DNA of 64,000 nucleotides from Acidobacteriota bacterium (GTDB taxonomy: Bacteria; Acidobacteriota; Blastocatellia; UBA7656): assembly GCA_038040445.1 (NCBI GenBank), contig JBBPIG010000020.1:19471-83470 (forward strand), given 5' to 3'. Position 1 is the stretch's first letter. Each line of letters opens with the position of its first letter. The notes beneath the pieces are model-generated. The model was not told the DNA's origin. It made no database searches and worked only from the letters and a program-made list of their open reading frames with translations. Below are positions 7,673 to 64,000 of this stretch, piece after piece. Position numbers and translations under genes: made by a program.

Positions 7673-9340
7673 ATGACAGACCGACAAACCAGGTTTGACG
7701 CGAAGACCGATATCGACTTTCTGATTATCGGCGCGGGCGCCGCGGGCGGAATAGTCGCCAAGGAATTATCCACAGCGGGATTTCGCGTGGTCGTGCTCGA
7801 ACAAGGACCGTACATGAAAGAGCCGGAGTTCGAACATGACGAGCTGAAATACATGCGGCGACACGCGATCACCAACGACTACGCTCGCCAACCCAACACA
7901 TTTCGCAAAACCGAAAAAGAGAAAGCCACGCTGCAGCCCGCCTTGACCTATGGCCGCATGGTCGGCGGCGGCACGGTGCACTTCACGGCGAACTTCTGGC
8001 GCTTTCATGAAATTGATTTCGTCGAGCGCAGCCTCTTGGGACCGATAGCCGGAACGGCGTTCGCCGACTGGCCGATCACCTACGCCGAGCTCGAGCCGTA
8101 TTATACGAAGGCCGAGTGGGAGCTGGGCATATCGGGACTCGCGGGAGCGAGTCCGTTTGATCCGCCTCGCTCGAAGCCCTATCCTCTTCCTCCGCTTCCG
8201 ATCAAGTCCTCCGGCGTGCTTGCCGAGCGAGGCGCGAGGAAGCTTGGATGGCACGCTTTCCCGGCGCCTATGGCTGTGATCTCCCAACCGTATCGCGGCC
8301 GCAGCGCTTGCCTGCACTGTGGCTTCTGCGAGCACTTCGGCTGTGAAGTAAGAGCCAAGTCGTCGACGCTGGCGACCGTGATCCGGGAAGCAGAGGAAAC
8401 GGGTCGTTGCGAAATTCGCCCAAACAGCTACGTGCGAAAGATCGAAACCAACAAGTCGGGGCTAGTCATCGGTGTGATCTATTACGATGAAACCGGCCGC
8501 GAAACCTTTCAGAGCGCCCGGTCAGTTGTGCTCTGCGCAAATGGAGCCGAGACTCCGCGCCTGCTGCTCTTGTCGAAGACATCTCTATTCCGGCGCGGTC
8601 TCGCGAATTCGAGCGGCAAAGTTGGAAAGTATCTGATGTTCAACGGCCATGCTTCAGCCTCGGCGTTGTTCGAGCACCCGCTAAACGAATTCAAGAGCGT
8701 CGCGGTGAGTAGAGTCATTCACGACTTTTATGACAGCGATCCCAAGCGCGGGTTCTACGGGGGCGGCGGAATGGACATGCGATTCGTCTCTTACCCGGTC
8801 GGTTTTCCTCTTCGAAATCTGCCACCCGACGCACCCACGTGGGGTCGCGAGTACAAGGCGCTGCTCAAGGAGCACTACACCCGCACCGTGAATGCCGTTG
8901 GCCACACGACTTCTCTGCCGGTAGAAACAAACAGCATCTCCCTCGATCCGCGCGAGAAAGATGCATGGGGACTCCCCGCGGTGCGCGTCACCTACAAAGA
9001 CCATGCGGAAGACATGAAAACGATGCGGTTCTTCCAGGACCGCTGCAAGGAACTTCTGGATGCGGCCGGAGCACGGAAACTGTGGAGCCGCCCGGTGAGA
9101 GAACAGTCGTTTGGATTTCACTTGCTGGGCACGTGCCGGATGGGCAATGACCCGAGAAGCTCGGTCGTCGACAAGTATCATCGCGCGCACGACGTGCCTA
9201 ATCTTTTCATATGTGATGGAAGCAGCTTTGTGACCTCAGGCCGCGGGCAGCCGACGTGCACGATACAGGCGCTCGCCTACCGCGCATCGGACCACATCAT
9301 CCGCATGGCCAGGAACGGCGAGATTAAGTCGGCTCTCTGA
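7673..9340 (+). CDS. GMC family FAD-dependent oxidoreductase
   Basis: 555 residues. The N-terminal Rossmann fingerprint (FLIIGAGAAGGIVAKEL) binds FAD. A middle block GGGTVHFTANFWR and the C-terminal GMC signature (FHLLGTCRMG, then FICDGSSFVTSGRGQP) follow. There is a cysteine-rich stretch CLHCGFCEHFGC, as in the large subunits of membrane-linked gluconate, sorbitol or related dehydrogenases, so an alcohol or sugar substrate is likely but not resolved. No small subunit or cytochrome c partner gene is adjacent. No signal peptide is evident. Confidence 0.9.
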   Translation: MTDRQTRFDAKTDIDFLIIGAGAAGGIVAKELSTAGFRVVVLEQGPYMKEPEFEHDELKYMRRHAITNDYARQPNTFRKTEKEKATLQPALTYGRMVGGGTVHFTANFWRFHEIDFVERSLLGPIAGTAFADWPITYAELEPYYTKAEWELGISGLAGASPFDPPRSKPYPLPPLPIKSSGVLAERGARKLGWHAFPAPMAVISQPYRGRSACLHCGFCEHFGCEVRAKSSTLATVIREAEETGRCEIRPNSYVRKIETNKSGLVIGVIYYDETGRETFQSARSVVLCANGAETPRLLLLSKTSLFRRGLANSSGKVGKYLMFNGHASASALFEHPLNEFKSVAVSRVIHDFYDSDPKRGFYGGGGMDMRFVSYPVGFPLRNLPPDAPTWGREYKALLKEHYTRTVNAVGHTTSLPVETNSISLDPREKDAWGLPAVRVTYKDHAEDMKTMRFFQDRCKELLDAAGARKLWSRPVREQSFGFHLLGTCRMGNDPRSSVVDKYHRAHDVPNLFICDGSSFVTSGRGQPTCTIQALAYRASDHIIRMARNGEIKSAL

Positions 9341-19217: not shown

Positions 19218-19398
19218 TTCAACTCCGTAGGAGTGTCCTGTCTATAGAAACCGCGCTGCCGAGATTCCGCGTCACTCCGTAGGAGTGTCCTGTCTATAGA
19301 AGATACGCGTTTCGATCAGATAGGAGACTCCTACGGAGTCAAACCGGAATCTGGCGTGGGCGTTTCTACAGACAGGACACTGCTACGGAGTTGAAACG
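19218..19398. repeat. Palindromic repeat cluster (ACTCC-gta-GGAGT core with TCTATAG tail)
   Basis: Two direct copies have the core ACTCCGTAGGAGT at 19222 and 19274, followed by GTCCTGTCTATAGAA. A core-only copy (GACTCCTACGGAGTC) lies at 19326-19340 and an inverted copy with tail at 19361-19398. The first three cores are spaced 52 bp apart. This fills most of 19213-19409, between the toxin tail and the LigD polymerase gene. Confidence 0.85.
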
Positions 19399-21215: not shown

Positions 21216-21447
21216 CGGAATCCCACCAACGCAGTTGGTGGATCGTTCATACACTACCTACAAAATGCTGAGGCAAAAAGGCTAGGTATGAAAACATCCA
21301 CCAACTGCGTTGGTGGGATTCGGCCGCACCTTGTCCGTGTAGGCTGAATATGAACGATCCACCAACTGCGTTGGTGGGATTCGGGCGCCGCGCTTTGTCC
21401 GTGTAGGCTGAACATGAACAATCCACCAACTGCGTTGGTGGGATTCC
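21216..21447. repeat. Four palindromic repeats (CCACCAACTGCGTTGGTGG) at 61-64 bp spacing
   Basis: One inverted copy (about 21218-21243) and three direct copies (cores starting 21298, 21359 and 21423) share CCACCAACTGCGTTGGTGG followed by GATTC. The spacers after the second and third cores are also alike (both contain TTGTCCGTGTAGGCTGAA), so these are tandem units of 61-64 bp. This is most of the gene-free stretch 21152-21492. Open frames through it are by-products of the repeat. Confidence 0.85.
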
Positions 21448-24872: not shown

Positions 24873-24950
24873 GTGTCGACCTTCCTACGTTCCTTGTTCC
24901 TTCCTCTGGGCCTATGCTTTTGCGATCTGCTCGAGATAGTACTTTAGCTT

Positions 24951-25114
24951 CGACAAACTTCAGCTTGTCGATTGGTCGCTGAAGCGTCGCATTCGGCTCG
25001 TCGCGACAAACTGAAGTTTGTCGTCCCCCTCCGGTAGGAGGGCCATGTTTATAGACCCCGCGTGGAGATCCGACCGCCCTCCGGTAGGAGGGCCAGCCGC
25101 TGGCTTACCAGCGG
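24951..25114. repeat. Composite palindromic repeat cluster
   Basis: Three palindrome types stand side by side. CGACAAACT/AGTTTGTCG-type units are at 24951-24970 and 25004-25023. CCCTCC-ggta-GGAGGG is at 25027-25042 and 25077-25092, exactly 50 bp apart; the first has the tail CCATGTTTATAGACC. CCGCTGG-ctta-CCAGCGG is at 25097-25114. The TTTATAG tail resembles the tail of the ACTCC/GGAGT family elsewhere in the window. It occupies the space 24873-25123. Confidence 0.8.
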
Positions 25115-57576: not shown

Positions 57577-57639
57577 TGACTTCTGAGTTCTGACCTCTGA
57601 CTTCTGAGTTCTGACCTCTGACCTCTGACTTCTGATATT
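57577..57639. repeat. Heptanucleotide minisatellite
   Basis: Eight tandem TGANYTC units, mostly TGACTTC, TGAGTTC and TGACCTC, in the order of a repeated 21-bp triplet, then a degenerate ninth. It lies between higB and the VOC gene. Confidence 0.85.
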
Positions 57640-63762: not shown

Positions 63763-63988
63763 CCACTCCGTACTAGTGACGTGTCTATGGTGGCAACGAA
63801 CGTGTCCCGTTCACTCCGTAGGAGTGACATGTCTATAGAAAGGACAACGGGGCGTCATGTTCACTCCGTAGGAGTGACATGTCTATAGACGCGGCGACGG
63901 CACGTCACGCTCACTCCGTAGGAGTGACCTCTTCGCGAGCCTGCGCATCATCGCACCCAAGCCAAGCACAGGTAACTCCTACGGAGTT
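63763..63988. repeat. Tandem ACTCC-gta-GGAGT palindrome array with constant TCTATAG tail
   Basis: Cores lie at 63811, 63861 and 63911 (TCACTCC-gta-GGAGTGA), exactly 50 bp apart, with a degenerate fourth at about 63763. Each of the first two is followed by CATGTCTATAGA and a GC-rich 18-20-base spacer that differs between copies. An inverted core (AACTCCTACGGAGTT) closes the set at 63974-63988. The array continues to the window edge. It fills most of the gene-free stretch 63588-64000, after a degenerate CCTCTGCG-type inverted repeat at 63677-63755. Confidence 0.85.
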
Positions 63989-64000
63989 CGAACCATTCAA

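Follow-up and report, generated by a model that had tools for sequence, protein, structure and literature searches.

Hairpin-and-tail arrays of an Acidobacteriota genome as probable REP-like elements of an IS200-like transposase of TnpA_Y1 subclass 1.2

Which kind of repeat forms the short palindromic arrays found on contig JBBPIG010000020.1 of an Acidobacteriota bacterium (Blastocatellia)? We analysed a window of 64,000 nucleotides, the whole stretch of DNA under study (G000:C20:19471-83470), which lies within a 6.75-Mb genome of 72 contigs; positions without a contig name are those of the window. A first-pass annotation, made from the sequence, had described palindromes that recur about every 50 bp, change on both arms and keep a constant tail, and could not assign them to a named repeat class. 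Our analysis indicates that the arrays are very probably non-autonomous REP-like elements of a Y1 (HUH, IS200-like) transposase of subclass 1.2, with processing of single-stranded DNA as the mode that we infer.

Re-measurement in the sequence bore out the spacing at all three sites. Hairpins of the form TCACTCC-gta-GGAGTGA recur with an exact 50-bp period, their starts being 63811, 63861 and 63911; a degenerate copy precedes the 63811 unit by 48 bp, with its start at 63763. As read from the sequence, the decayed first unit (CCACTCCGTACTAGTGACGTGTCTATGG; 63763..63790, + strand) is followed by two units in which the hairpin precedes a CATGTCTATAGA tail (63811..63839 and 63861..63889, +) and by a tail-less terminal hairpin (63911..63927, +). 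The array faces an inverted partner hairpin, AACTCC-TAC-GGAGTT (63974..63988, -), whose own array runs past the window end to C20:83499 (tail match C20:83481-83499). At 19.2 kb the hairpins start at 19222 and 19274, 52 bp apart, and comprise ACTCC-GTA-GGAGT with a TGTCTATAGA tail (19222..19248, +) and CACTCC-GTA-GGAGTG with its tail (19273..19300, +). Opposite them lies an inverted partner (19326..19394, -) that comprises GACTCC-TAC-GGAGTC as a hairpin together with a second, degenerate unit carrying a TCTGTAGA tail (match 19365-19389, 2 mismatches). At both 63.8 kb and 19.2 kb the array is thus more than a plain direct one and is opposed by an inverted partner. A second family is represented by CCCTCC-ggta-GGAGGG hairpins starting at 25027 and 25077, 50 bp apart. 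The first carries a CCATGTTTATAGA tail (25027..25055, +), and its stem and tail are identical to the flanks of a transposase gene on contig C26, described below; the second is terminal (25077..25092, +). The hairpins at 63911 and 25077, each the last of its array, lack the TCTATAG/TTTATAG tail, and the CCATGTTTATAGAC that had been placed after both CCCTCC hairpins is present at 25027 and missing at 25077.

The pattern TCCGTAGGAGTGWCMTGTCTATAGA, with at most three mismatches allowed, matched five times in the window and never in 100 shuffles, and its recurrence is beyond chance expectation. The 50-bp array was also detected by TRF. The spacers, said earlier to differ, are often mutually related inside one array and are not independent sequences there; across unrelated genomes, neighbours 48-54 bp apart have unrelated spacers. 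A palindrome pair, GACAAACTTCAGCTTGTCG and GACAAACTGAAGTTTGTCG, occupies 24950-25026, immediately ahead of the 25027 unit, and unrelated short tandem repeats are present at 1-113 (21/42 bp) and 57577-57635 (7/21 bp).

Regular spacing, a constant repeat with a variable interval and G+C-rich intergenic hairpins call to mind other hairpin classes, namely CRISPR arrays, the attC sites of integrons, transcription terminators or structured RNAs. Against these readings speak the related spacers, which are not those of a CRISPR array, the short, dispersed arrays standing opposite inverted partners, a TTTATAG in place of a run of T after the hairpin, an Rfam scan of the window in which no family matched and the Y1 gene that the units adjoin in relatives. 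We regard this group of explanations as extremely improbable, and the RNA role that had been proposed for the hairpin found no support either.

Turning to the REP-like reading, the genome-wide search proposed earlier found six exact copies of the first unit, and a looser unit pattern gave 25 matches in the genome and none in the reversed control, all these counts being pattern-based. The approximately 25 units in 6.7 Mb lie mostly in short direct arrays opposite an inverted partner, a layout that recurs at C20:85.3 kb, C21:84.3 kb and C2:51.8 kb, among other sites, and that also characterises the repeats on either side of the transposase gene. Contigs C7 (at 275293), C18 (at 143357) and C26 (at 1) terminate inside arrays. 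The assembly thus breaks there, and assembled array lengths may be too short.

The proposed search for a RAYT- or IS200-like transposase sharing hairpin and tail in its flanks was likewise successful. The Y1_Tnp (IS200-like) domain gave seven hits in five genes, each of which is flanked by inverted copies of its own palindrome family. The gene at C7:274573-275031 lies between GACTCC/GGAGTC hairpins with TCTATAG-type tails and the gene at C26:73-537 between CCCTCC/GGAGGG hairpins with TTTATAG-type tails. The second stem type of the window matches the C26 flanks exactly, and the first is close to that of C7, with CACTCC/AACTCC in the window against GACTCC beside the gene. The two proteins are 59% identical, score 96 and 87 bits with Pfam Y1_Tnp and match the ISDra2 and IS608 transposases by sequence and by fold, with a further fold match to the E. 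coli REP transposase structure 4er8; their nearest named homologues include Acidobacteriota (Blastocatellia, Pyrinomonadaceae). Since both stem and tail types of the window flank a Y1 gene in inverted orientation, the array units are REP-like, and there is little doubt that they are REP-like elements cognate to this transposase.

The remaining three Y1 genes have palindrome families of their own. The one at C2:30160-30429 (L043:3978-4577) is a classical RAYT with GTAG-tagged hairpins (CGTAGTCCCGCCTTCAGGCGG) on both sides; it meets the NCBIfam REP-transposase cut-off and provides an internal contrast. The gene at C4:67855-68691 (L042:4853-5692, - strand) encodes a protein of 279 aa with two Y1 domains in one chain and has relatives at loci L254-L258. 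Its first domain keeps the tyrosine and Q--HH, with the second histidine of HuH replaced by R or Q; the second domain keeps DHxH, and in five of six sequences Phe occupies the position of the Tyr, which G022 retains. Judged from these residues, the protein resembles a dimer joined in one chain that shares a single composite active site, and its AF2 model contains two Y1 folds at low confidence. The palindrome flanking this gene, CCACCAActgcgTTGGTGG with a CCTACA tail, also forms the 63-64 bp repeat at window 21288-21446. A second double-domain gene (C3:210277-211091; L041) extends across two reading frames, which may reflect a frameshift, decay or a sequencing error, and its flanks carry CCCCAACCggaaGGTTGGGG palindromes that have a GCCTACA tail.

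To which class do the C7 and C26 proteins belong? They carry the motifs DH[VIT]H, WQ and YIxNQxxHH, the last present in 80 of 82 proteins of the relative set, and the catalytic residues H55, H57 and Y115 are invariant in an alignment of 27 sequences. The Y---NP motif of known RAYTs is absent and Y---Q--HH stands instead. Both proteins exceed the NCBIfam cut-off for IS200, and for the REP transposase model NF047646 their scores of 35 and 30.5 bits fall well short of the cut-off of 80. For TnpA_Y1 subclass 1.2 the described signature is DH[IV]H, WQ and YI-NQ--HH in proteins of about 148-150 aa with low copy number (PMC6006769, Quentin and others). In that survey the subclass lies near true IS200 transposases, occurs mostly in Cyanobacteria and Bacteroidetes and is entered as "no" in the REP column (PMC6006769). 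By motifs and length, the two proteins are assigned to subclass 1.2.

The association of gene and repeat holds across phyla. A scan of one genome per species in 84,980 species yielded 80 loci with 54-63% identity. They spread over at least seven phyla, with members in Acidobacteriota, Verrucomicrobiota, Planctomycetota, Ignavibacteria, Neomarinimicrobiota, KSB1, Bacteroidota and one Anaerolineaceae. We counted 72 units of hairpin and TNTATAG at up to 700 bp from these genes, a density of 0.68/kb compared with 0.08 farther off and 0.02 in shuffled flanks. Units accompany 41 of the 80 relatives with the strict tail and 48 with a looser one. No strict-tail unit was found at the other 39, mostly Bacteroidota such as Chryseobacterium, where the repeats may be different or absent. 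Among unselected close homologues of the same class (L134-L142) units were present at all nine loci, and among more distant Y1 loci at 1 of 38. The tail type tracks taxonomy, which confounds any tree-based comparison of tail type against protein.

The geometry of the unit is fixed. When every distinct TNTATAG near a gene was taken, with no hairpin required, 59 of 119 were preceded by a perfect 5-bp hairpin whose loop ended exactly 11 nt before the tail, and any other distance (5-23) occurred at most twice. Units selected by their 3' half alone had a complete stem in 71 of 110 cases with a 3-nt loop and in a further 17 with a 4-nt loop, all other slides giving at most one. The stems co-vary: pairing at variable stem positions was 0.81, a value that relatedness among units can inflate, and 1000 reshufflings of the 5' arms never gave more than 0.62. 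Stem types differ on both sides (ACTCC/GGAGT, GCGCC/GGCGC, ACGCC/GGCGT, GTCCC/GGGAC, ATCCC/GGGAT, GCACC/GGTGC). The earlier proposal of a conserved unit, in which both stem arms change and the tail stays, is supported by the 11-nt geometry, the 3'-half selection and the covariation test that it had suggested. The consensus reads A-[RCNCC]-GTA-[GGNGY]-G-A-M-A-T-N-T-T-T-R-T-A-G, and the rule is a hairpin of at least 5 bp with a loop of 3-4 nt, six bases and then TT(A/G)TAG or TCT(A/G)TAG, with 11 nt from loop end to tail. The constant motif, TT(A/G)TAG, lies on the 3' side. GT[AG]G was not found at the 5' hairpin foot of the units, where one A is the sole conserved letter.

The orientation and number of the units bear on where they come from. 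The unit nearest to a relative's gene directs its tail to the gene in 60 of 72 cases (left 30 versus 4, right 30 versus 8), so that the flanking units are inverted with respect to each other. The strict pattern has 481 copies in G006 (= G059), a genome of the same family as the source genome, and 131, 51 and 48 copies in three others, with 1-5 matches in the reversed controls of these four genomes; the close gene mostly occurs once per genome. In G006 two families, GGAGTG..TCTGTAG and GGAGGG..TTTATAG, make up about 480 units over many contigs (e.g. C32, C47, C580) with array periods of 50, 71 and 75 bp. The first family was the only one observed next to a gene, and no gene flanked by the GGAGGG family was found in this draft. 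One could take the units for leftover end fragments of ordinary IS200/IS605 insertion sequences, in which the gene moves together with its ends, since the protein is nearest to IS200-type transposases and a hairpin with a cut-site-like 3' motif resembles an IS605 right end. This explanation is improbable: IS605 ends read on one strand, whereas the units flanking these genes are mutually inverted; true IS200 has many near-identical copies, whereas the two genes of the source genome are only 59% identical; and units exceed genes by up to hundreds to one.

Furthermore, same-strand neighbours cluster at a spacing of 48-54 bp across unrelated genomes. Some arrays, with units of 50 or 71 bp, have almost identical spacers, as slippage would yield, which favours a passive spread of the tandem and inverted repeats through replication slippage and recombination, the gene being one site among many. 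We consider this very unlikely, because the units are concentrated beside one Y1 protein clade across phyla with the tail directed gene-ward, and the spacers vary while geometry and tail stay constant. One comparison of related genomes speaks for REP-like elements of a transposase. Synteny between G006:C553 and G003:C19 extends over 7 kb, and a three-unit array (~7762-7980) in G006 is missing at the syntenic site in G003, where a 19-bp gap stands; the exact array borders are unreadable in the diverged intergenic DNA. At the two inverted pairs of C20, the empty-site comparison with the nearest relatives found one flank conserved and the neighbours rearranged. By analogy with related transposases, we infer that the units are mobile.

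A sister clade, whose proteins start with 'LxYHIVFSTK' and keep Y---Q--HH, comprises more distant relatives of the same class. The TTTATAG unit is absent beside its genes, and at 12 of 20 loci (L144-L161; e.g. L150, L158, L159, L161) the flanks contain hairpins directly preceded by GTAG, TTAG or ATAG, with 34 such tagged hairpins found against 0.4 in shuffles. A second hairpin often lies about 12 nt ahead of the tag. Subclass 1.2 in the wide sense thereby appears to be REP-associated, as far as these flanking motifs indicate.

How might such units spread? In a circle of the IS605 type the right and left ends are joined, and the stretch from one tail to the next resembles that junction. Enzymes related to this transposase bind hairpins in single-stranded DNA and cut nearby through a tyrosine, the cut site being chosen with short conserved letters beside the hairpin (PMC8266576; PDB entries of relatives). 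A transposase dimer would bind the hairpin in single-stranded DNA, probably the lagging-strand template, and its tyrosine would cut at or beside the TATAG tail; the letters that select the cut site here would be TT(A/G)TAG, 3' of the hairpin. By analogy with IS608/ISDra2 and with TnpA_REP biochemistry, cleavage at the tail is a balanced proposition, with as much to be said for it as against it. Each tail-to-tail stretch (about 23 nt, the hairpin, 13 nt) would then represent one hairpin with a possible cut site on either side, and could be excised and rejoined or inserted next to another tail. Excision, rejoining and insertion of this kind would lead to tandem arrays of fixed period as well as to dispersed inverted pairs. 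That the tail-to-tail monomer is the moving unit is nevertheless somewhat unlikely, and replication slippage alone could also extend arrays, with the same appearance expected. As a tentative and rather doubtful extension, subclass 1.2 might constitute a further REP-forming branch, consisting of a clade starting with 'QIYIQVVFAV' with the 3' TT(A/G)TAG tag and the sister clade with a direct (G/T/A)TAG, in which the ~50-bp tail-to-tail unit would be a minimal single-strand transposon with one hairpin, giving rise to arrays as it inserts next to its own tail.

If the REP-like reading is true, a whole branch of IS200-like proteins kept separate from the RAYTs has a cognate repeat of its own, which obeys a simple rule: hairpin, six bases, TT(A/G)TAG. 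With this rule such repeats could be recognised and given names in Acidobacteriota, Verrucomicrobiota, Bacteroidota and other groups, whose assemblies break at them. The reading would also place a REP system on the IS200 side, with a 3' tag like that of an IS605 right end and an inverted layout like that of REPs, and thus the origin of REP systems from insertion sequences would become directly testable. Moreover, an enzyme this small, acting on a short single-strand target of fixed form, would be easy to assay. We found no earlier description of this repeat in the open-licence literature searched.

Among known systems, class 3, subclass 2.6 TnpA_Y1 and the TIRtrons resemble the present one in having Y1 genes flanked by GTAG-less palindromes or inverted repeats (PMC6006769, PMC3733652), and class 3 and one TIRYT group do occur in Acidobacteria (PMC6006769, PMC3733652). 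Nevertheless, none of them fits the units: class 3 differs in NHVH, W[TA], Y----Q and a CnGA foot (PMC6006769), subclass 2.6 has Y---NP, and most TIRtrons have a shared GGGGWSAS (PMC6006769, PMC3733652). IS200/IS605 elements (IS608, ISDra2; subclass 1.1) share the fold, the catalytic residues and a hairpin with a short 3' motif as right end, whereas here the flanking hairpins are inverted, the units are hundreds-fold commoner than the gene and multiple identical gene copies were not seen. The GTAG REPs with their RAYT/TnpA_REP (REPtrons, BIMEs, REPINs; class 2; PMC6006769, PMC3733652) likewise have a Y1 HUH gene between inverted palindromes, numerous dispersed copies between genes for only a few of the gene itself, a separate repeat family for each gene with several families per genome, and inverted pairs together with tandem groups. 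In contrast to them, our units have TT(A/G)TAG or TCT(A/G)TAG on the 3' side, six bases off the stem, instead of GTAG/GTGG immediately 5' of the hairpin, the protein has Y---Q--HH instead of Y---NP, and direct arrays of ~50-bp period are prominent, whereas most GTAG families have few head-tail dimers (PMC3733652). The system is REPtron-like, with intact HuH and tyrosine, inverted flanking palindromes and many copies for few genes; the two defining features of canonical REP/RAYT systems that we tested, the 5' GTAG foot and Y---NP, are lacking. Hence the statement that the arrays belong to no named class gives way in part to the REP/RAYT match that the first-pass annotation had itself named as its refutation, and what survives of it is that they are an undescribed variant within the REP/RAYT-like class. 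With TnpA_Y1 subclass 1.2 (PMC6006769) the present transposases share the DH[IV]H, WQ and YI-NQ--HH motifs, a similar length (~150 aa), low copy number and proximity to IS200; unlike the subclass as surveyed, for which no REP was listed, cognate repeats here flank the genes in Acidobacteriota, Verrucomicrobiota, Planctomycetota, Bacteroidota and others. On our best reading, the units are to be filed as REP-like elements of TnpA_Y1 subclass 1.2, a variant of the REP class.
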